Source of the DNA: Candidatus Pacearchaeota archaeon
Lineage (GTDB): Archaea > Nanoarchaeota > Nanoarchaeia > Pacearchaeales > GW2011-AR1
NCBI GenBank assembly: GCA_002690445.1
Contig: NZER01000038.1
Span: 1-7,227 of the forward strand
Direction of reading: 5' to 3'
Length of the DNA stretch: 7,227 bases
The position numbers and the translations under genes were made by a program. Positions 1 through 7,227 of the stretch are shown here, piece after piece. Each line of letters begins with the position of its first letter. Position 1 is the first letter of the stretch. The notes under the pieces were generated by a model. It ran no database searches, was not told the DNA's origin, and was given only the letters and a program-made list of their open reading frames with translations.

Positions 1-15
1 TTGATTAACCATCAA
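1..15. repeat. Short inverted repeat (5-bp arms)
   Basis: TTGAT at 1-5 and ATCAA at 11-15 are exact reverse complements around a 5-base loop. The arms are short enough to arise by chance, and the left edge of the window may cut a longer stem. It could be part of an operator or of the end of an upstream transcript. Confidence 0.25.
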
Positions 16-22
16 ATACGGG

Positions 23-49
23 GAAAGTCTCCGCTTCGCTCCGACTTTC
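23..49. repeat. Inverted repeat, 7-bp arms, in the leader
   Basis: GAAAGTC at 23-29 and GACTTTC at 43-49 are perfect reverse complements around a 13-base C/T-rich loop. There is no U-run right after it on the + strand, so it does not look like a standard intrinsic terminator. The right arm overlaps a competing pairing of ACTTT (44-48) with AAAGT (56-60). Two mutually exclusive hairpins ahead of a gene could act in attenuation or protein binding, but this is inference from base pairing alone. Confidence 0.4.
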
Positions 50-93
50 TAGGGAAAAGTTTATATATTATTTATTATTATTAATATTTATCT

Positions 94-687
94 ATGGAAT
101 TTAAGTATAAAAATATTGGAATATCTGGCGTAGCCGGTTGTGGAAAGAACACGTTATCTGAAATTATAATTAAATTATTGCAACGACTTGAATTACCGTA
201 CAGGGAATTGTCTATTGCAAAAAATTTAAAACAGGAGGTTTCATGGGCTTCCCGTGAACTTTATGGAATTAATTCGTCTAATTGCACGCGGGAGGAAAAG
301 GATACGATTCGTCCCTTCCTAGTCGCTCACGGGGAAATAAAAAGAAAATTATCAAACGGAACGTATTGGACTTCGTTATTAAATAAAGAATTGGGACGCG
401 AAAAAATAAATATTATAACTGATATTAGGTTTAACGAATACGAAAAGGATGAGGTTTATTGGCTAAAAAATGAGATTAATGGAGTTTTAATTCACCTTAG
501 TCGTTATGATCAAGTAAACGGGGCGCGTGTTTATTTTCCCCCTGCTAACGAAGCCGAAAACAGAAACGAACCTCTTCTCAAAGAAGAAGCCAGTTTCCTT
601 TTAAAGTGGAAAACAGAGGAAGATGAAACAAAAAAAATAATTTCTGCCGAAAAGTTGTTAAGATGGTTAAAGAAGTTGTATGTTTGA
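94..687 (+). CDS. Deoxynucleoside monophosphate kinase-like P-loop protein
   Basis: Predicted 197-residue cytoplasmic nucleotide kinase of the type phages use to raise dNMPs to dNDPs for DNA replication (phage T4 gp1 is the reference enzyme). A Walker A loop GVAGCGKNT lies at residues 12-20. Residues 107-117 (IITDIRFNEYE) match the conserved strand and acidic/arginine motif of this family. The segment around 150-172, with NEAE, a following N-x-P-L and a terminal LLKW, resembles the family's C-terminal signature. The length fits phage enzymes, usually near 200-250 residues. The start is the ATG at 94, which lacks a Shine-Dalgarno sequence. The gene overlaps the next one by 8 bases, suggesting translational coupling. 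Base composition is AT-rich: about 33% G+C over 121-180. A more general P-loop NMP kinase is the alternative; substrate specificity cannot be read from the sequence. Confidence 0.75.
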   Translation: MEFKYKNIGISGVAGCGKNTLSEIIIKLLQRLELPYRELSIAKNLKQEVSWASRELYGINSSNCTREEKDTIRPFLVAHGEIKRKLSNGTYWTSLLNKELGREKINIITDIRFNEYEKDEVYWLKNEINGVLIHLSRYDQVNGARVYFPPANEAENRNEPLLKEEASFLLKWKTEEDETKKIISAEKLLRWLKKLYV

Positions 688-1123
688 AGGATCTTCGATT
701 GTCGACGTTTTATGCCAGCCGATGTTGGCGTATTGCGGAAGAAAAGCGAAATTAAGTTTGCGTCCCGATACCCTGTCGGCCCTTCATCATTTAAAGTTTA
801 ATAAATTAGACGCTTTTTTCTCCTACGACATTAAGATCTGCCGCTTCGATAGTTCTCTATTTTCCGAAGAAACTGATGTAAATTTTGCTTTTATAGTGGA
901 AACAACTGTTTTTTCTAGTGATCCTTTTGATTTACCGGTCAGCGACGCTAATGTTTTTTTAGAAAAAAACTTTGACGATCTAATCGAATATTCTATAATT
1001 CTACCGCGTATGTTCAAAAGGCATGAGCGCTATGTTCTTAATATGGAGAAAGATAGCCCTTGTTCTTTTGGGAATTTTACAAACAAAGTAGAATTATGGA
1101 AAAAGGATATTGGGATAACGTGA
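680..1123 (+). CDS. Hypothetical protein, family not recognised
   Basis: A 147-residue protein that I cannot assign. It has no signal peptide or clear membrane segment. It is mixed alpha/beta in look, with hydrophobic stretches around 67-78 and 103-110, and four scattered cysteines (12, 19, 54, 128) that form no obvious metal-binding motif. The ATG at 680 lies inside the end of the kinase gene, and the tail overlaps the sigma factor gene by 28 bases. That coupling on both sides is the main reason to accept it as real. An antisense frame at 823-1017 is a shadow. Its position between a nucleotide kinase and a sigma factor suggests a phage replication or gene-expression role, but nothing in the sequence shows one. 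Confidence 0.65.
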   Translation: MFEGSSIVDVLCQPMLAYCGRKAKLSLRPDTLSALHHLKFNKLDAFFSYDIKICRFDSSLFSEETDVNFAFIVETTVFSSDPFDLPVSDANVFLEKNFDDLIEYSIILPRMFKRHERYVLNMEKDSPCSFGNFTNKVELWKKDIGIT

Positions 1124-1698
1124 GCGATAACTATCTAGCGGAGAGGATCAAAGTTCTCCATTGCGAAATCAGTTTAAACGAGTTGATAAAACGCCATTCC
1201 CCTCTTTGTTTTAAAATAATTAAAAAATACTCGAGCTCCTTCTACGCCAACAATATAGATGTAAAAGAGACCTCTTCTGAAAAAAATTTAATTATCTGGA
1301 ACTCCGCCAAGAGTTTTAGCAGTGATAAGAACGTAAAATTCTCCACATGGTTAGCCAATCAGGTCAAATACAACTGCCTCAATACATTAAATAAAAAATC
1401 AAAGGATCGTCTAATCACTACGGAAGATGAGATCTTAGACGTTTTAAAAGAAAGGCCGGAAGAACAGTCCAACGGTAATCTTTTTGAATTTACTCATAAC
1501 ATACTCAAACAATTGAAAGACAAGAGAATAAAGCAGATCTTTAAGATGAGATATTCCATAAACGACAAAAAGCCTTCGTGGTGTATCGTTGCTAAAAAGT
1601 TAAATATAAGCACCCAGACTGCGATAAATCTTCATAATCGAGGAATAGACGTCTTGAGGAAAAAAATGAAAAGCGAAAAATTTTTAGACTCTATTTAA
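1096..1698 (+). CDS. Sigma-70 family RNA polymerase sigma factor
   Basis: A 200-residue sigma factor with only regions 2 and 4, the layout of small (ECF-like or phage) sigma factors. Region 2 spans about residues 27-100: a hydrophobic helix with KKY (43-45), an EKNLIIWNSAKSF segment (62-74) matching the core-polymerase-binding helix, and KFSTWLANQVKYNC (81-94) matching the -10 recognition helix, where other sigmas have KFSTYA. Region 4 spans about 133-190, with a helix-turn-helix around SWCIVAKKLNISTQTAI (161-177). T4 late sigma gp55 lacks region 4, so this is not a simple gp55 copy. I chose the ATG at 1096 because the only longer start is a TTG at 1060 that adds 12 poorly conserved-looking residues. 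It overlaps the preceding gene by 28 bases. It probably redirects host RNA polymerase to a set of phage genes; its target promoters are unknown. Confidence 0.85.
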   Translation: MEKGYWDNVSDNYLAERIKVLHCEISLNELIKRHSPLCFKIIKKYSSSFYANNIDVKETSSEKNLIIWNSAKSFSSDKNVKFSTWLANQVKYNCLNTLNKKSKDRLITTEDEILDVLKERPEEQSNGNLFEFTHNILKQLKDKRIKQIFKMRYSINDKKPSWCIVAKKLNISTQTAINLHNRGIDVLRKKMKSEKFLDSI

Positions 1699-1707
1699 AA
1701 AAAAGTG

Positions 1708-1734
1708 TTGACACCCTTCCCCGGAGGGTATAAT
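1708..1734 (+). promoter_or_regulatory. Sigma-70-type promoter for the downstream operon
   Basis: A perfect -35 box TTGACA at 1708-1713 and a perfect -10 box TATAAT at 1729-1734 are separated by 15 bases, shorter than the usual 17. A shifted -10, TAATAT at 1731-1736, would give 17. Transcription would start near 1741-1743, only 4-6 bases before the ATG at 1747. The promoter lies in the only intergenic gap of the right-hand block and probably drives the genes from 1747 onward. Its consensus form suggests use by the host housekeeping polymerase rather than by the phage sigma factor just upstream. Confidence 0.75.
1713..1729. repeat. Imperfect palindrome in the promoter spacer
   Basis: Bases 1713-1719 (ACCCTTC) can pair with 1723-1729 (GGAGGGT), with one G-T wobble and a three-base loop. 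The palindrome fills the whole spacer between -35 and -10. It could be an operator for a repressor or activator, or chance in a C/G-rich spacer. It also contains GGAGG (1723-1727), which is too far from the ATG at 1747 to be a normal ribosome binding site. Confidence 0.3.
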
Positions 1735-1746
1735 ATATGGACTCTT

Positions 1747-2058
1747 ATGTCGGACGAACAAAAGAACAACGACTGGAAAGAGCGCGAATTAGGCGCTCTT
1801 TGGGTAAAGAAGAGCCTCAATGGCACACAGTACATGACCGGACACATCGAATTGAAAGATGCGTCAGGCAAGGTGCAGTTGGTGGTCTTCAAGAACAAAC
1901 ACAAACTGAACGAAGACGGAACCGTCGCTAATGAGAAGGCTCCGGACTTTCGTGTATACAAAAGCGAAGAGCGAGAGCAGCGTCAAGGATCGGGAGGGGA
2001 AGCTCCTCGCGAAACAGTCGCTGCAGCAACCTCTACGGACGAAGACTCACTGTTTTAA
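1747..2058 (+). CDS. Small DUF736/SSB-like protein with acidic C-terminal tail
   Basis: A 103-residue soluble protein. Residues 9-72 form a compact, probably beta-rich domain with the pattern ERELGALWVKKS, then TGHIEL, LVVFKNKHK and KAPDFRVYKSE. This resembles the small DUF736-type proteins of phages and plasmids (growth from VVF to a PDFRVY motif). Residues 73-98 form a charged, Gly/Ala/Thr-rich linker, and the protein ends in DEDSLF, an acidic tip with a terminal Phe like that of bacterial SSB. A single-strand DNA-binding or partner-recruiting role is therefore possible but unproven. I chose the ATG at 1747 over a GTG at 1705, because the GTG lies within the promoter and adds 14 residues encoded by it. 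The stop is followed at once by the next ATG (TAAATG). G+C is about 50% over 1861-1920, above the 33% sampled in the first gene. Confidence 0.75.
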   Translation: MSDEQKNNDWKERELGALWVKKSLNGTQYMTGHIELKDASGKVQLVVFKNKHKLNEDGTVANEKAPDFRVYKSEEREQRQGSGGEAPRETVAAATSTDEDSLF

Positions 2059-3147
2059 ATGTCTGAGTTCGCCTTACATCTACCTATTAATGGTGTAAGT
2101 TTCGGGCAGGTTAGCACAGCCCTTCTGCGTGAATTTCACCTGAGGGGCGTGCAGCCTTGTCTGTTTACCATCGGTCAATCCGACCTTTCTTCCCAAGACA
2201 CTACGCCCGATTTCAACAAGTGGGTCGAGTCAGGGGTAAGAAAAGCTTTCGAACATTATAACCGCGACGCTCCTATTTTTAAACTTTGGCATCTAAACCA
2301 TGACAGCTTAACTTCTTACGCGAAAGAGCAAACTCTTCTTACTTTTTATGAACTAGATCATCCTACTTCGATAGAGGTTAACATTGCTAATAATCAAAAA
2401 ACCACTTTAGTAAGTTCAAATTATGCCAAAGAAATATTTAAAAGCTATGGGGTTGAAAATTGTAAATTTATTCCCCTTGGTTTTGATAAAGATAATTTTC
2501 ACCACAAAAATCAAGATTATCTCCCCAATAGAATAGTATTTAATTTAACAGGCAAGCTGGAAAAACGAAAACACCACAAAAAAGTAATCCAGACATGGCT
2601 CAAGAAGTATGGTAACCAAAAAGACTATGTGCTCCAGTGTGCAATCGCTAACCCCTTCCTGAAGGAAGAAGATTTTAAGCGGGCGGTGAGTGATATTTTG
2701 GATGGAAAAAAATATTTTAATATAAATTTTCTAGGGATAATGCAGAAAAACAGCCTCTATAACGACTACCTAAATTCGGGGAACATAATTTTGGGCATGT
2801 CTGGAGCCGAAGGGTGGGGGCTTCCTGAGTTCCAATCTGTAGCTCTAGGGAAACATTCTGTAATCCTGAACGCTTCCGCCTATAAAGATTGGGCTAACGA
2901 AGAAAACAGCATCCTCGTGGAGCCTAACGGCAAAGAAGACTCTGCGGATGGGATATTTTTTAAGAAAGGAAACCCCTTTAATCAAGGTCAAATTTTCACC
3001 TTTGATGAAGACGCTTTCGTTGAAGGATGCGAGAAGGCCATTGAAAGGTACAAGTCTTGCCCCGAAAATAAGGCCGGACTTAAACTTCAAGAAGAGTTTA
3101 CTTACAAAAGGATGGCTGATTCTATTATGGAGGTAATGGATGCCTGA
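2059..3147 (+). CDS. GT-B fold glycosyltransferase, GT4-like
   Basis: A 362-residue predicted cytoplasmic glycosyltransferase that transfers a sugar from a nucleotide-sugar donor to an unknown acceptor. The N-terminal half carries the acceptor-domain fold. The hinge is around TTLVSSNYAKEIF (115-127) and FIPLGFDKDNF (137-147), a standard GT4 pattern. The donor domain begins with VFNLTGKLEKRKHHKKVI (160-177), where the basic residues normally contact donor phosphates, and includes SGAEGWGLPEFQSVALG (248-264). That last motif corresponds to the GT4 E-x7-E element: Glu251 is present but the second position is Gln259. Length is usual for GT4. Translation probably restarts directly from the TAAATG junction with the previous gene, as there is no good Shine-Dalgarno sequence. 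The 3' end overlaps the next gene by 8 bases. Confidence 0.85.
   Translation: MSEFALHLPINGVSFGQVSTALLREFHLRGVQPCLFTIGQSDLSSQDTTPDFNKWVESGVRKAFEHYNRDAPIFKLWHLNHDSLTSYAKEQTLLTFYELDHPTSIEVNIANNQKTTLVSSNYAKEIFKSYGVENCKFIPLGFDKDNFHHKNQDYLPNRIVFNLTGKLEKRKHHKKVIQTWLKKYGNQKDYVLQCAIANPFLKEEDFKRAVSDILDGKKYFNINFLGIMQKNSLYNDYLNSGNIILGMSGAEGWGLPEFQSVALGKHSVILNASAYKDWANEENSILVEPNGKEDSADGIFFKKGNPFNQGQIFTFDEDAFVEGCEKAIERYKSCPENKAGLKLQEEFTYKRMADSIMEVMDA
3129..3133 (+). promoter_or_regulatory. Strong ribosome binding site for the FmdB-like gene
   Basis: GGAGG lies inside the end of the glycosyltransferase gene, with 6 bases before the ATG at 3140. It confirms that start and the 8-base overlap. Confidence 0.8.
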
Positions 3148-3484
3148 ATATATTTATGAGAATCCCGACACGGGAGAACAAGTAGGCGTGTGGCAAAGTG
3201 TTCACGAAGACCATACTTATGAAATAGAAGGGGTAACGTACAACCGAGTATATACTATCCCCAACGCCTCAATAGACACACGTATAGATCCCAACTCTGC
3301 ATCAGAATTTAGGGACAAGGCTAAAGGGACTTTAGGTGACATTTGGGACCAGTCAGCAGAAGCCTCTGAGAAGAGAGCTAAACAACACGACGGAGAAGAC
3401 CCAGTAAAAAAACAGTTCTTTAAGGATTACTCGGCAAAAAGGAAGGGAGCGAAACACCCCAAAGATCCCTCCCGCTTTTCTTAA
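3140..3484 (+). CDS. FmdB-like small protein lacking the zinc-binding cysteines
   Basis: A 114-residue soluble protein. The first 45 or so residues follow the FmdB/zinc-ribbon pattern: MPEYIYENPDTGEQ, then VWQSVHEDHTYEIEG, then YNRVYTIPNAS, which mirrors MPTYEYxCxxCG...FEVxQS...xxRxxSxPA. The protein contains no cysteine at all, so the zinc ribbon is lost or was replaced by a metal-free version. Residues 55-114 are a charged, probably helical tail rich in Lys, Asp and Glu. Similar small FmdB-like proteins are found in tailed phages, which is from memory and unverified here. A strong Shine-Dalgarno sequence supports the start, and the stop abuts the next ATG (TAAATG). It sits between two glycosyltransferases with no obvious enzymatic role; it may be a structural or regulatory protein caught in the operon. 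Confidence 0.65.
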   Translation: MPEYIYENPDTGEQVGVWQSVHEDHTYEIEGVTYNRVYTIPNASIDTRIDPNSASEFRDKAKGTLGDIWDQSAEASEKRAKQHDGEDPVKKQFFKDYSAKRKGAKHPKDPSRFS

Positions 3485-4387
3485 ATGGATTATGTTTTCG
3501 TAGACGACTCATGCACCCCCTTAGGCGGAACTGCTCTTACTCTTAATGCAATAGTAGAACCTTTTAAGGAACGGGTTGAGTTTGTAAAAACTACAGACCT
3601 TACGCCGCAACATCTACAATTTAAAAACCCCAAAATTTGGATCTTGGGGAACATAACAGGTTTAAACCAAGATTCCTTCACAGCTTTAGGTGAGATAATG
3701 CAGTCCCGCCCTTTCGTCAAAATAGATTTTGATTATGGTTACTGCAAATATCGAGCGGAAGTAACCCACAAGCATGTAACGGGATCTATATGCGACTGCA
3801 CCTTTAGCGCCGACAAGCAGTCCACTCCTCTTCGCACCCTTTACTACTTAATAAGGGAAAAAGCTCTTCATATTTTTTACATGTCTGAAGAGCAGCGCAA
3901 CTTTCACTTGGCTAAAGTAATAGGCATCGAGAACTCTCAAAAGACCTCAGTATTATCCTCTTGTTTTTCTTCGGCAGACATTGATCTAATGGAGAATTTA
4001 AGAAACAATCCTAAAAATGGGAAGTATGCAATAATAGATGGGCAAGGAGGATGGCACAGTCAAGCTAAAGGGGTCGACGAGGCTTTAAGTTTAGCCAGCG
4101 CTAGCGGGCTAGAATACGAACTTTTAAAAACAGATACGCATGACGAGATGCTGAACCTACTTTCGTCGTTTAAGGGGTTAATATTCTTACCCTTAATTCA
4201 TGACACGTGCCCTCGCGTAACAATCGAAGCAAAACTCATGGGTCTTCAAGTTATAACAAACTCCAGATCCCAACACGTGTATGAAGACTGGTGGTTGAAT
4301 AAATCTCCAGAAGAATCTCAGGCCTACTTGGAGAAAAGACCAATGTGGTTTCTTAACAAGCTAAGGGAGCTAAAAGATGAAGGTTGA
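3485..4387 (+). CDS. GT-B-like glycosyltransferase with a cysteine/histidine cluster
   Basis: A 300-residue protein that resembles a divergent glycosyltransferase. The N-terminus has VFVDDSCTPLGGTALTLN (4-21), like the GG-x-E/A-x-x-L acceptor-side motif of GT4 enzymes. A Rossmann-like segment KIWILGNITGL (50-60) follows. The C-terminal half has YAIIDGQGG (181-189) and DTCPRVTIEAKLMGLQVI (240-257), the usual donor-binding helix pattern of GT-B enzymes (P-x-V-x-x-E-A-x-x-x-G-x-x-V-I). Cys87, His95, His97, Cys103 and Cys105 cluster in the middle and could bind a metal. At 300 residues it is short for GT4, and the donor domain looks trimmed. The ATG follows the previous TAA directly, and the 3' end overlaps the next gene by 11 bases. 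Donor and acceptor are unknown. Confidence 0.7.
   Translation: MDYVFVDDSCTPLGGTALTLNAIVEPFKERVEFVKTTDLTPQHLQFKNPKIWILGNITGLNQDSFTALGEIMQSRPFVKIDFDYGYCKYRAEVTHKHVTGSICDCTFSADKQSTPLRTLYYLIREKALHIFYMSEEQRNFHLAKVIGIENSQKTSVLSSCFSSADIDLMENLRNNPKNGKYAIIDGQGGWHSQAKGVDEALSLASASGLEYELLKTDTHDEMLNLLSSFKGLIFLPLIHDTCPRVTIEAKLMGLQVITNSRSQHVYEDWWLNKSPEESQAYLEKRPMWFLNKLRELKDEG
4366..4369 (+). promoter_or_regulatory. Ribosome binding site for the GT2 gene
   Basis: GGAG, within AAGGGAG at 4363-4369, lies 7 bases before the ATG at 4377 and inside the preceding gene, supporting that start. Confidence 0.65.
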
Positions 4388-5051
4388 TATATTAATACCC
4401 ACTTACAACGTGGAGAATACAATAGAACGAAGCCTGAAATCTTTGCTTTCGCAGACGTTTAGCGACTATGACATATACATCCTAGACGACTGCTCAACAG
4501 ATAAAACTCTGGAGAGGGTGGAAACCCTGCTGGCTCCCTTGGTGGAGGAAGGAAGAGTCCGCGTAGAAAAAAATGATACGAATCAGGGCATTGGACTCAA
4601 CAGAAACAAATTGATAGAAATGTCAAAATCCCCTCTTTGCTGCTGGTTTGACGCGGATGACTACATGTTCCCCCATAAACTTCAGGCTCAGGAGGACTAC
4701 TTTAATCATAATCCAGATTGTAATTTTTTAGCAACTGAGATGTTTGGATTCTTTCCCAACACTCCGGTCGTTATAGATTTTCCCAATAAAGCTTTTATGG
4801 TGGAGAATTTAACATTGGAAAAGTTACAGCATAGCAACTGTATAAACAACCCCACCATTATGTTTCGCCCAGAGGCTGTAAAGGAACTGGGAGGCTATAA
4901 GGATATGAGAGCTGAGGAAGATTGGGATTTATGGAGAAGGGTTTATGAAAATGGCGGTAAGATTAACTGTCTACCTCGAAAATTATTACTTTATACACTG
5001 CCCAACGGTTGGCCAAATAGCCACAAACACGGAGAAGGAGGCTCTAAGTGA
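4377..5051 (+). CDS. Family 2 (GT-A) glycosyltransferase
   Basis: A 224-residue inverting glycosyltransferase of family 2, predicted to use a metal ion and a nucleotide-sugar donor at the cytoplasmic side. The N-terminus VDILIPTYNVENTIERSLKS (3-22) is the classic GT2 opening. LDDCSTDKT (36-44) holds the donor-binding Asp pair. NQGIGLNRNK (69-78) is the usual N-x-G-x-x-x-x-R-N segment. WFDADDYM (90-97) carries the metal-binding DxD (Asp92, Asp94). EEDWDLWRRV (180-189) contains the ED motif with the likely catalytic base. There is no membrane segment, so it is a soluble enzyme, and it is short, ending soon after the GT-A core. It shares a GTGA overlap with the next gene. The acceptor cannot be predicted. 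Confidence 0.92.
   Translation: MKVDILIPTYNVENTIERSLKSLLSQTFSDYDIYILDDCSTDKTLERVETLLAPLVEEGRVRVEKNDTNQGIGLNRNKLIEMSKSPLCCWFDADDYMFPHKLQAQEDYFNHNPDCNFLATEMFGFFPNTPVVIDFPNKAFMVENLTLEKLQHSNCINNPTIMFRPEAVKELGGYKDMRAEEDWDLWRRVYENGGKINCLPRKLLLYTLPNGWPNSHKHGEGGSK
5035..5041 (+). promoter_or_regulatory. Consensus Shine-Dalgarno before a GTG start
   Basis: AAGGAGG lies 6 bases before GTG at 5048. This near-perfect site makes the GTG start, within the GTGA overlap, the clear choice for the fusion gene. Confidence 0.85.
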
Positions 5052-5779
5052 TATACTGTTTTGATTTAGACAATACTATCTGCGCCACGGCCTCTTCCAA
5101 ACTTTACAGCGAAAGCGTTCCTTACCCCAAGGTTGTAAACCATATTAATGGGCTCAAGCTCAAGGGACATGTCATAAAAATATTTACAGCTAGAGGCTCC
5201 GGATCGGGAAAAGACTGGCACAAACTCACCGTCTTCCAACTTGATAAGTGGGGAGTACCGTACGACGAACTGATAGACCAAGGAAAACCGAGCTACGACA
5301 TATTCATAGATGACAAAAATCAAAACGCTTACCAATGGAGAAAAGAAAACAACCTTGCGGTTACCGGATTGGTTGCTGGAGCATTCGATTTACTTCACGC
5401 GGGACACTGTCTCTATCTCAAAGAAGCTAAAACGGTATGTGATTACCTCTATGTTGCGCTACAAACAGACCCTACCTGTGAAAACTTTGGTAACCGGCCC
5501 CTCAAAAAGCCCAAAAACAAACCGGTGCAAACGATGGAAGAGCGAAAAATTCAGTTGGAGAGCGTCTCTTACGTCGATGAGATAATAGAATACAAAACGG
5601 AAAACGACTTGTCAAAAATCTTAGAAAAATTAAAGCCGGACTTACGCATACTTGGATCAGATTACAAAAACGTAAAAAGCACTGGAGAAGAATTTTGTGG
5701 AGGTATAGTCTACCATACTCGTGATCACAACTGGTCTTCTACCAATTTGAGAAAATCTGTTAGTGAAAATAATAACTAA
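5048..5779 (+). CDS. HAD phosphatase-nucleotidyltransferase fusion protein
   Basis: A 243-residue two-domain enzyme. Residues 1-103 are a compact HAD phosphatase of the kind found in capsule clusters: nucleophile Asp6 and acid Asp8 in FDLDNT, TARG at 47-50 (Thr47), a KWGVPYDELIDQGKPSYD segment with Lys80, and the DD pair at 88-89. Residues 105-240 are a cytidylyltransferase-like domain (TagD/HldE C-terminal type): GAFDLLHAGH (111-120) with the HxGH nucleotide-binding motif, MEERK (163-167), LGSDYK (202-207) and WSSTNLRK (229-236), the equivalent of the ISSTxxR motif. It probably removes a phosphate from a sugar bisphosphate and joins the sugar-1-phosphate to a nucleotide. The HAD part lacks the GmhB signature, so a heptose role rests on the neighbouring kinase. 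Glycerol-phosphate or another polyol phosphate is an alternative substrate. It starts with GTG behind a strong Shine-Dalgarno and overlaps its neighbours by 4 and 17 bases. Confidence 0.88.
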   Translation: MIYCFDLDNTICATASSKLYSESVPYPKVVNHINGLKLKGHVIKIFTARGSGSGKDWHKLTVFQLDKWGVPYDELIDQGKPSYDIFIDDKNQNAYQWRKENNLAVTGLVAGAFDLLHAGHCLYLKEAKTVCDYLYVALQTDPTCENFGNRPLKKPKNKPVQTMEERKIQLESVSYVDEIIEYKTENDLSKILEKLKPDLRILGSDYKNVKSTGEEFCGGIVYHTRDHNWSSTNLRKSVSENNN

Positions 5780-6716
5780 ATGCCCAGTAAGAATATCTTT
5801 AGCTGGAGGATCTACTGATTCCCCCCGTTTTATAGAAAAGTACAATAGGGGAAGTGTTATATCCTTCACCCCCAACCTCTTCACCTATACCTCAGTTTTT
5901 CAGGATGTTAATGGGTTTAATAACTTCAACAAAGAGTACATATTGTCTTATTCACGAAACGAATGCACTTCCCATGTTTCCGAAATAAAAAACCACCTCA
6001 TAAAGGAAGCTCTGATCTCCATCCACTCTCCTCCGTGTAAAATAACTTTTGATTCTGACATCTTTTCTTCCGGGTCCGGACTTGCTGTTTCCTCCAGCTA
6101 CGCCTTGGGAATCGTAAATTCGCTAAACACTTTCAAAGGGCTTACTTTCCAGACCAGTGAGATATGCAAGAAAGCTTTCGATATAGAAAACAAGGTTAAC
6201 CCATACAACGGATATCAAGACACCTACGGAGTAGCGTACGGAGGACTAAAACGCTTGAATTTTAATAAAGATGGCACGTTTTCTATAAAATATTTAAACC
6301 CATGGGTATTCGAAAAATTTAATTTTTATTTAGTATACACTAAAATAAAAAGAGAATCAAGCTCCATACTCAAGACTATAAACACAGACAAAAGCCTGCC
6401 TCTCCTCGAGGAAGTAGACAAACTTGAAAAAAACATATTAAAAAAAGACGCATCCTCTTTTTTAAAAACGGTTAACAACTCATGGAGAATAAAAAAAGAA
6501 GGAAGCCCATCAATCTTGAACGACCCAGAACTAGTTAAGTTGGACGAGCAGCTTCAAAACGACAGCGAAGTGTATGCCCATAAACTGTGTGGAGCCGGAG
6601 GCGGGGGGTATTTTTTAGTAATCACCGACAAAATAGACTCTTTTAATTTTAAAAACCCCCACCCTTGGATTAAAATAGATTTAGACACTAAAGGAATTTC
6701 TACTCTAAAAATATGA
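5763..6716 (+). CDS. GHMP kinase, D-glycero-D-manno-heptose-7-phosphate kinase-like
   Basis: A 317-residue sugar kinase of the GHMP superfamily, closest in pattern to HddA, which phosphorylates the anomeric carbon of heptose 7-phosphate in GDP-heptose synthesis. Motif 1, CPVRISLAGGSTDSPRF (7-23), matches the RISxAGGGTD opening of this subfamily. The phosphate loop SSGSGLAVSSSYALG (102-116) is the GHMP signature. QDTYGVAYGG (152-161) contains the likely catalytic Asp153. The C-terminal motif KLCGAGGGGYFLV (274-286) closes the active site. Length is near the family norm. The start is the GTG at 5763, which overlaps the fusion gene by 17 bases with only a weak GAGA site ahead of it; it gives the expected short lead-in to motif 1. 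It ends in an ATGA overlap with the epimerase gene. A fucokinase-like or other sugar kinase activity is the alternative. Confidence 0.88.
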   Translation: MKIITKCPVRISLAGGSTDSPRFIEKYNRGSVISFTPNLFTYTSVFQDVNGFNNFNKEYILSYSRNECTSHVSEIKNHLIKEALISIHSPPCKITFDSDIFSSGSGLAVSSSYALGIVNSLNTFKGLTFQTSEICKKAFDIENKVNPYNGYQDTYGVAYGGLKRLNFNKDGTFSIKYLNPWVFEKFNFYLVYTKIKRESSSILKTINTDKSLPLLEEVDKLEKNILKKDASSFLKTVNNSWRIKKEGSPSILNDPELVKLDEQLQNDSEVYAHKLCGAGGGGYFLVITDKIDSFNFKNPHPWIKIDLDTKGISTLKI

Positions 6717-7227
6717 ACACACTAGTAACAGGCGGCTGCGGATTTATAGGATCACATATTGTGAACCGGTTGGTCTCTTTGGGGCACAATGTCCGCGTTT
6801 TAGACGACAAGAGCGCGGAAAGCAATGAAAAGTTCCCCGTAAACTCAAAAGCGCAATATCATTATGTCTCCATAAGGAATTATGACGAAATTGTAGACTT
6901 GTTTACTAACACAGATAACGTTTTTCACTTGGCGGCAGAATCCAGAATAGGCCCTTGTATAGACCACCCACAAAACGCCTGCCTGACAAACGTGCTTGGA
7001 ACCTGCAACGCATTACAAGCTTCCAGAAAAAAGGGAGTCAAAAAATTTATATACTCAGGGACCTCCTCCGCTTATGGTCTTGCAAATAAACCTCCCCTTA
7101 AAGAAGATATGCCCCGCGACTGCTTAAACCCCTATGCGGTAACCAAAACCGCTGGAGAGGACTTGGCTAAAATGTATTATACACTATGGGGGCTAAAAAC
7201 AGTTAGCTTTAGATATTTTAATGTTTA
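6713..7227 (+). CDS. NAD-dependent sugar-nucleotide epimerase/dehydratase, 3' end cut off
   Basis: The first 171 codons of an extended short-chain dehydrogenase/reductase; the window ends before the stop (full proteins have about 300-340 residues). The Rossmann motif TGGCGFIG is at 6-13, with Asp31 and Asp32 at the end of strand 2 favouring NAD. HLAA is at 72-75, SGTSSAYG at 115-122 supplies the Ser/Thr of the active site, and YAVTK at 141-145 gives the catalytic Tyr141 and Lys145. The RYFNV ending at 171 is typical of GalE/WbpP-like epimerases. It probably epimerises or dehydrates the nucleotide sugar made by the preceding genes; the exact substrate cannot be told without the C-terminal half. 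The ATG at 6713 overlaps the kinase stop as ATGA, with no good Shine-Dalgarno sequence, indicating coupled translation. Confidence 0.92.
   Translation, partial: MNTLVTGGCGFIGSHIVNRLVSLGHNVRVLDDKSAESNEKFPVNSKAQYHYVSIRNYDEIVDLFTNTDNVFHLAAESRIGPCIDHPQNACLTNVLGTCNALQASRKKGVKKFIYSGTSSAYGLANKPPLKEDMPRDCLNPYAVTKTAGEDLAKMYYTLWGLKTVSFRYFNV

Follow-up and report, generated by a model that had tools for sequence, protein, structure and literature searches.

Which sugar is activated by three overlapping genes at the right-hand end of a contig assigned to Candidatus Pacearchaeota (NZER01000038.1; the whole stretch of 7,227 nucleotides that was analysed is referred to here as the window)? Between positions 5048 and 7227, a fusion of a HAD phosphatase with a nucleotidyltransferase (NT), a GHMP kinase and an epimerase follow one another behind a family 2 glycosyltransferase gene, and their ends overlap (Table 1), just as a sequence-only reading of the window had described. 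We suggest that the three genes probably make up the downstream section of a phage route to a nucleotide-activated heptose; their carrier is a virus of bacteria, and most likely they turn a seven-carbon sugar phosphate into a nucleotide-activated sugar for glycan building.

Table 1. Features of the window, with positions counted from its first nucleotide.
Feature	Coordinates	Strand	Remarks
Upstream core block: dNMP kinase-like, 147-aa protein, sigma factor, small DUF736/OB-like protein	94..2058	+	
Glycosyltransferase-like protein (GT1)	2059..3147	+	within conserved core block
114-aa protein	3140..3484	+	last of core block
300-aa protein	3485..4387	+	opens variable island; without Pfam or PHROG match
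Family 2 glycosyltransferase (GT2)	4377..5051	+	4-base overlap with fusion gene
HAD phosphatase-nucleotidyltransferase fusion, 243 aa	5048..5779	+	
HAD phosphatase domain of fusion, residues 1-99	5048..5344	+	nearest solved structure AfhF (9iqw)
HxGH nucleotidyltransferase (NT) domain of fusion, residues 106-238	5363..5761	+	HAGH 117-120; C-terminal RDHNWSST
GHMP sugar kinase, HddA-like, 317 aa	5763..6716	+	
NAD-dependent nucleotide-sugar epimerase/dehydratase	6713..7227	+	truncated by contig end after 171 codons

In the proposed route, sedoheptulose 7-phosphate, for which transaldolase is a source, would be converted into heptose 7-phosphate by GmhA, supplied by the host or, in many relatives, by the phage itself, and the GHMP kinase would phosphorylate this compound at C1. 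With its HAD half, the fusion would then remove the 7-phosphate, and with its HxGH half it would join the heptose 1-phosphate to a nucleotide; the epimerase would invert one carbon, and the neighbouring glycosyltransferases would put the sugar onto a glycan of the virion or the host surface. The classes of the domains, their intact active-site motifs, the gene overlaps and the recurring neighbours are observed; the heptose substrate, and with it the anomer, the nucleotide, the epimerised carbon and the acceptor, we infer. No match to GmhA was detected within the window, which ends soon after the NT and kinase genes.

The gene neighbourhoods of viral relatives were surveyed in 149 loci, part of them drawn from the best 80 matches of one search. 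Each locus spans up to 10 kb on either side of the fusion, and some end at contig ends (L028 is cut short on the left, and in L087 and L089 the fusion sits at or near the fetched end). A coverage rule, outside of which L106 falls, left 51 loci with a full-length fusion; these form 39 clusters at 90% identity, and L001, L003 and the window are likewise not among them. With genes classed by their best phmmer match at E 1e-5, a GHMP kinase is present in 38 of the 39 clusters (of the window's type in 32), and a GmhA-like isomerase accompanies the fusion in 35, including 28 of the 32 with the window-type kinase. In 34 clusters the epimerase family of the window is present with a score of at least 150 bits (36 if weak dehydratase-like matches are counted), and six have a transaldolase. 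A hand-made list gives a GHMP kinase in 40, GmhA in 37 and the epimerase in 38 of 42. The transaldolase of one locus, L085, exceeds its NCBIfam cut-off (291 versus 281.95 bits), and the best match of the SIS protein encoded there is gmhA. Because all loci with a transaldolase, and all HAGH-type fusions accompanied by GmhA, possess the other type of GHMP kinase, our confidence in heptose is reduced and that in the competing explanations slightly raised. NT domains lacking a HAD partner rarely have such neighbours: of 65 viral loci, five contain a GHMP kinase (a count that includes one actual fusion), and of 80 bacterial loci, none does. The NT-only loci used for this comparison have, however, a smaller median length (10,993 versus 16,717 bases); in the 26 NT-only loci of at least 12 kb, GHMP kinases occur in five and GmhA in four, L109, really a fusion, being counted in each.

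The sequence-only reading had looked for GmhA in a rightward extension of the contig. The complete record of L006, which of all relatives comes closest to the gene content of the window, did not yield it, and the host may therefore provide the isomerase step. Nor was GmhA found in the records of L086, L105, L106, L110 and LR756511, several of which are perhaps fragments. These records could be taken to mean that the pathway in the window's lineage is incomplete and decaying. We hold this to be very unlikely, as the catalytic motifs are intact, a kinase 91% identical to that of the window is present on a 180-kb contig, and Gram-negative hosts commonly own GmhA.

The kinase had been called HddA-like, and its grouping outside HddA in a tree had been named as an outcome that would speak against the heptose reading. 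HddA is indeed the top-scoring of the six NCBIfam families listed for it (NF049969), at 89.6 bits and thus below the cut-off of 600, and the GHMP motifs (G15 G16 S17 D19, G106 L107 S110, Q152 D153, and G277 A278 G279 G281 G282) are invariant across 33 sequences. In the tree, the window type forms a separate clade of 13 rows (support 100/99) outside HddA; yet the data do not reject a topology that unites it with HddA (p-AU 0.274). The window-type clade, HddA and fucokinase share a fork supported at 90/95, with two galactokinases outside at 100/100. Ranked by Foldseek E-value, the structural model of the kinase matched the heptokinase WcbL best (3.2e-21, TM 0.87, rmsd 2.6), followed by fucokinase, HddA and galactokinase, and the TM-scores of the galactokinases are similar to that of HddA. 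A viral scan with the window kinase as the single query returned no relative.

The fork shared with fucokinase and the galactokinase TM-scores would also suit a different sugar or polyol phosphate, with a kinase acting on a fucose- or hexose-like sugar or an NT of the glycerol-3-phosphate cytidylyltransferase type. The latter enzyme is the closest structure to the NT domain, with HldC almost equal, and the nearest bacterial NT relatives are without heptose-type enzymes (0 of 80). We nevertheless judge this explanation unlikely in view of the frequency of GmhA-like isomerases, both overall and beside window-type kinases, of the family and structure matches of the kinase to HddA and WcbL, and of the genome LR756511 (595 kb), in which a window-type kinase is joined directly to an NT domain in a single ORF of 458 aa, implying that the product of the kinase feeds the NT.

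The NT half carries the HxGH signature (HAGH, residues 117-120). Its best NCBIfam score is to rfaE_dom_II (TIGR02199; 73.5 bits, below the cut-off of 181.5), and it reaches 62.4 bits against the glycerol-3-phosphate cytidylyltransferase family (cut-off 165.4). A CDP-6-glucitol-type cytidylyltransferase was dismissed, that enzyme belonging to a different family (PF01128). According to a commentary on Tang et al. 2024, the STTR5 motif is the hallmark of NTP-promiscuous HENases. The window does not conform to this motif, (F/L)xxGRSTT, as it reads HNWSST with a Trp replacing the STTR5 Arg, a position occupied by Y, W or F in the relatives examined. Since E. coli HldE itself has a C there, the motif is no arbiter of HENase status.

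The HAD half preserves its catalytic residues (DxDxT, T47, K80 and D88-D89) in all 27 sequences compared. It had been placed in the C7 phosphatase class of heptose routes; a homology to GmhB we could not recognise: no GmhB family is among the 16 NCBIfam matches of the fusion (E up to 0.1), and a profile built from 21 relatives missed E. coli GmhB even with E values up to 10 allowed, while the same profile picked up E. coli HldE at 1.2e-15. The structure match lists contain no GmhB row, an absence that says nothing on membership. The closest solved structure is that of AfhF, a D-arabinose 1,5-diphosphate phosphatase from phage HY126; a literature search for AfhF and HY126 produced neither name among the matches listed.

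With this AfhF-like HAD domain, the window has a feature of the RB69-type arabinose module, and DNA arabinosylation was seriously weighed after the structure match. As in RB69-like phages, the cassette would then serve the modification of DNA, its product being an activated pentose (D-arabinose), with isomerase, kinase, HAD and NT acting on arabinose 5-phosphate. RB69 possesses a parallel set composed of an isomerase, an EcbF-BcbF-type HAD, an NTP transferase and a protein with weak resemblance to kinases, and the module resembles the cassette in its HAD fold and in the logic of isomerase, kinase, distal phosphatase and NTase. The HAD is, however, the sole component common to both, and the other three enzymes come from different families. 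The RB69 isomerase is of the KpsF/GutQ type (112.9 bits), whereas the fusion loci have GmhA-like isomerases and none of the 39 contains an RB69-type (KpsF/KdsD) isomerase at E 1e-5; the NT of RB69 belongs with GlmU/RmlA, and its presumed kinase has only sub-threshold matches to RIO and fructosamine kinases, whereas the fusion loci have GHMP kinases, and at E 1e-5 neither of these two RB69 proteins is matched anywhere in the 39 loci. A seven-carbon substrate also better fits the transaldolase in six clusters. For the dCMP hydroxymethylase-like gene of RB69, a query of 71 residues had no match near the fusions, which is a weak test. The enzyme families of RB69 and the 39-locus survey thus disfavour arabinosylation, and we rate it as distinctly improbable.

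The last gene encodes, as anticipated, an enzyme of the sugar-nucleotide epimerase class, and it fits GalE better than the heptose epimerase HldD. The fragment in the window scores 110.2 bits to galE versus 53.4 to HldD (TIGR02197; cut-off 274.6), and three full-length relatives, one of them at L006:11663-12571, score 155-169 to galE versus 116-128 to HldD, with the galE cut-off (262.3) also unmet.

Among known systems, the GDP-heptose pathway employs HddA, GmhA, GmhB and HddC. The window is akin to it in the best-scoring family of its kinase, and differs in its HxGH-type NT, in a HAD not recognisably GmhB and in a kinase outside the HddA clade. In the Synechococcus phage SynMITS9220M01 (MT408532, genes 204-207), kinase, GmhA, fusion and epimerase are consecutive, and its authors term three of the four heptose genes related to LPS. 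Like the window, this phage has a GHMP kinase (40% identity), a HAD-NT fusion (42%) and an epimerase of the same family within a single series of genes; unlike the window, GmhA lies between kinase and fusion, and the fusion, annotated as a hypothetical protein, reads HPGY instead of HAGH. An activated-sugar pathway in a phage, most likely for heptose, is what stands of the sequence-only reading, backed by the GmhA-like and transaldolase neighbours, SynMITS9220M01 and the WcbL match. Less well supported are its details: the kinase lies outside HddA in the tree, although a joint clade is not rejected, the HAD is not recognisably a GmhB, and the epimerase is closer in score to GalE than to HldD.

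Commentaries on Tang et al. 2024 (PMC11573728, PMC11461863) describe NDP-heptoses as immune agonists, the synthesis of ADP-, CDP- and UDP-heptose (HldE/HldC, HENases) in viruses, and viral HENases that occur alone, with a kinase, or with an isomerase and a kinase; one of them (PMC11461863) states that the phosphatase step is absent from the viral pathway. The window resembles the HldE/HldC-HENase systems in the best family score of its NT, and deviates from them by the fused HAD and the Trp at the STTR5 Arg position. Phages with heptose-type genes are already known, and the fused phosphatase-NT, a recurrent candidate for the step reported absent, could be the missing viral one. Our literature search found no account of a HAD-NT fusion, with queries not specific to it and with subscription papers mostly outside its coverage. 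More speculatively, and with considerable doubt on our part, the AfhF-like HAD and the aromatic-motif HxGH NT might together form a bifunctional heptose-1,7-bisphosphate phosphatase/nucleotidyltransferase in an NDP-heptose route assembled by uncultured phages, supply the viral phosphatase reported as missing, and possibly make a nucleotide-heptose foreign to known bacterial routes (another anomer, CDP-linked, or a 4-epimer). If the heptose reading is right, a pathway for a seven-carbon sugar has been put together anew in phages, with components that differ in their origin, and a single small protein suffices for testing heptose against pentose.

Markers of glycan type and of phage placement were of little help. 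GT9 heptosyltransferases exceeded the cut-off in 0 of 10 records (L006 gave 19.5 bits, below it). PF03420 had no match anywhere and is uninformative as a T4-like marker; Gp23, used for T4-like placement, had no match in seven of seven records of the window's kin and a match in three of ten cassette carriers. L106, which has the sigma and GT1 genes of the window in common, contains one gene that scores 17.4 bits to GT9 (cut-off 22); in favour of heptose, it also has a PfkB kinase, with rfaE_dom_I as its best match (104.5 bits, below the cut-off of 345), that directly precedes a diverged HAD-NT gene.

In the sugar-gene island of the window, genes with overlapping ends encode a 300-aa protein that matches no Pfam or PHROG family, a GT2 glycosyltransferase, a fusion of a HAD domain with an HxGH-type nucleotidyltransferase (NT), a GHMP kinase and the beginning of an epimerase. 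The succession of the last three genes is confirmed as the sequence-only reading had described it. Their proposed role in a pathway for activated heptose fares less uniformly: heptose is probably the sugar of the cassette and the best candidate for it, while neither family scores nor homology place the proteins in HddA, GmhB and HldD.

The genomic company of the fusion supports this assignment. Among the matches listed, 149 viral loci, fetched with up to 10 kb on each side, yielded 51 with a full-length fusion, which form 39 clusters at 90%. In these 39 clusters, again among the matches listed, a GHMP kinase is present in 38, a GmhA-like isomerase in 35, an epimerase of at least 150 bits in 34, a GMD-like protein in 11, a transaldolase in six and a PfkB/HldA-like kinase in two. 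The kinase is of the window type in 32 clusters and of another GHMP type in seven, one cluster having both; GmhA accompanies the former in 28 of 32 and the latter in six of seven, and all six transaldolase loci carry the other type (all among the matches listed). Viral NT genes without HAD have GHMP kinases in 5/65 and GmhA in 4/65 loci (L109, actually a fusion, is counted once in each), and viral HAD genes alone in 1/32 and 10/32, respectively. Hence, heptose-type enzymes go with the fusion rather than with the NT domain by itself. GHMP, GmhA and PfkB each gave 0/80 in bacterial NT loci (L160-L239), which come mostly from Flavobacteriia and Sphingobacteriia and carry relatives of the NT domain at 42-55% identity.

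Against the gmhA family (cut-off 209), two GmhA-like proteins of phages reach 47 and 53.6 bits. In an alignment including E. coli GmhA, ten phage proteins possess Asp in place of Glu65, and the His at E. coli position 180 is kept in all 11 sequences; both are catalytic residues of GmhA.

The cassette might instead activate a pentose, as in the RB69-type module. The HAD half is related to AfhF, presumably, from PDB titles, a phage D-arabinose 1,5-diphosphate phosphatase, and RB69 has a parallel module; the latter, however, consists of a KpsF-type isomerase, a GlmU/RmlA-like NT and an only weakly kinase-like protein, and among the matches listed none of these three has a match in any of the 39 fusion loci.

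The kinase, previously read as HddA-like, scores best against HddA (89.6 bits; cut-off 600), followed by fucokinase (67.5) and mevalonate kinase (41.1). In a tree of 27 rows it falls outside HddA, within a clade made up of 13 rows from phages or metagenomes (support 100/99) that shares a fork with HddA and fucokinase (90/95), two galactokinases lying outside (100/100); a joint clade with HddA is nevertheless not rejected (p-AU 0.274), nor is a single clade of all HddA-like rows versus fucokinase and galactokinase (p-AU 0.203). An earlier, 60-row tree suffered from long branches and did not settle the deep order; neither tree included a named mevalonate kinase. By E-value, the predicted model (pLDDT 92.3, pTM 0.90) ranks the heptokinase WcbL first (TM 0.87, rmsd 2.6), ahead of fucokinase (0.81) and HddA (0.75-0.77); galactokinases rank below HddA, yet reach a TM of 0.79. 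The modelled structure therefore points to WcbL more than to HddA itself.

Variant arrangements are instructive. In LR756511, a 595-kb phage genome, a window-type kinase and an HxGH NT form one 458-aa ORF without HAD. In L106, which has sigma and GT1 genes in common with the window, a PfkB kinase replaces the GHMP kinase and precedes a diverged HAD-NT gene; its best match is rfaE_dom_I, the kinase domain of HldE (104.5 bits, cut-off 345). That one kind of HAD-NT protein stands next to kinases of two unrelated folds, each with its best score against a heptose kinase family, is the strongest hint at heptose besides GmhA.

For the window lineage itself, which combines a HAGH fusion with the window-type kinase, the evidence for heptose is less direct. 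Five distinct HAGH contigs were read; only L006 has the window-type kinase, and its 76-kb record contains no GmhA. The others (L083, L084, L085, L103) have the second GHMP kinase type together with GmhA and transaldolase; in L083 and L085 all three genes lie after the fusion. GmhA was also not found in L105 (162 kb), L110 (100 kb) or LR756511. A host enzyme could serve this step.

Besides the window, five contigs retain HAGH. A count of motifs in 49 full fusions, some of them near-duplicates, gave Tyr in place of the second His in 43 (HPGY; e.g., L001, L007, L012), whereas the 120 nearest proteins all have HxGH (HAGH in 106). Judged from these motifs, a recurrent phage family has the hallmark residue replaced. 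The database label 'phosphoheptose isomerase' on the HAD family (PHROG 1238) looks wrong, since the proteins so labelled are phosphatases by domain.

Coordinates of the features discussed
Locus	Feature	Positions
Window	Core block, dNMP kinase to 114-aa gene	94-3484
Window	HAD half of fusion	5048-5344
Window	HAGH motif	5396-5407
L256	RB69p051, labelled phosphoheptose isomerase	1709-2095
L003 (LR756511)	GHMP kinase-NT ORF	5983-7359
L106	PfkB kinase and HAD-NT gene	7264-8726
L001 (SynMITS9220M01)	Two types of GHMP kinase and of NT	1-3790, 6554-9633
L006	Genes downstream of epimerase	12513-16017

Heptose pathways in phages have precedents among published genes and enzymes. For SynMITS9220M01, the genome paper reports talC along with heptose-related LPS genes (D,D-heptose 7-phosphate kinase, phosphoheptose isomerase, ADP-heptose epimerase; PMC7378029), and in another text gmhA is one of the well-characterised auxiliary genes that marine phages carry (PMC9238414). 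Two commentaries on Tang et al. 2024 describe functional NDP-heptose enzymes encoded by viruses and the phosphatase as absent in viruses (PMC11573728, PMC11461863). RB69 arabinosylation (PMC6024577, PMC13390438) and a pentose modification in phage Thanatos (PMC12838424) have also been described. The new points are the fused HAD-NT protein as candidate phosphatase of the viral pathway, the differing origins of the pathway components, and their wide occurrence among uncultured phages.

The left half of the window (7227 bases in all) encodes a dNMP kinase-like protein, a 147-aa protein, a sigma factor, a small OB/DUF736-like protein, the glycosyltransferase-like GT1 and a 114-aa protein. Among 28 uncultured viral loci retrieved using GT1 or the 300-aa protein (L259-L285 among them), 26 keep the dNMP kinase, sigma factor, GT1 and 114-aa genes as one block, which in L285 runs the opposite way; the genes that follow vary from phage to phage. 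The window thus covers the junction of a conserved phage block with a variable sugar-gene island. Searched against 50,697 phage records, the sigma factor has no counterpart in named phages; GT1 has a single weak match, and seven of seven related records show none to Gp23. A glycosyltransferase-like gene within such a core block is unusual.

The two GHMP kinases of SynMITS9220M01 differ in type, and its nucleotidyltransferases are likewise of two kinds, which suggests two activated-sugar routes, the other one, at a guess, HddC-like. Downstream of the L006 epimerase lies an uncharacterised set comprising an APH-like kinase, a MobA-like NTP transferase (below cut-off), a radical SAM/SPASM protein and a class I/II aminotransferase.
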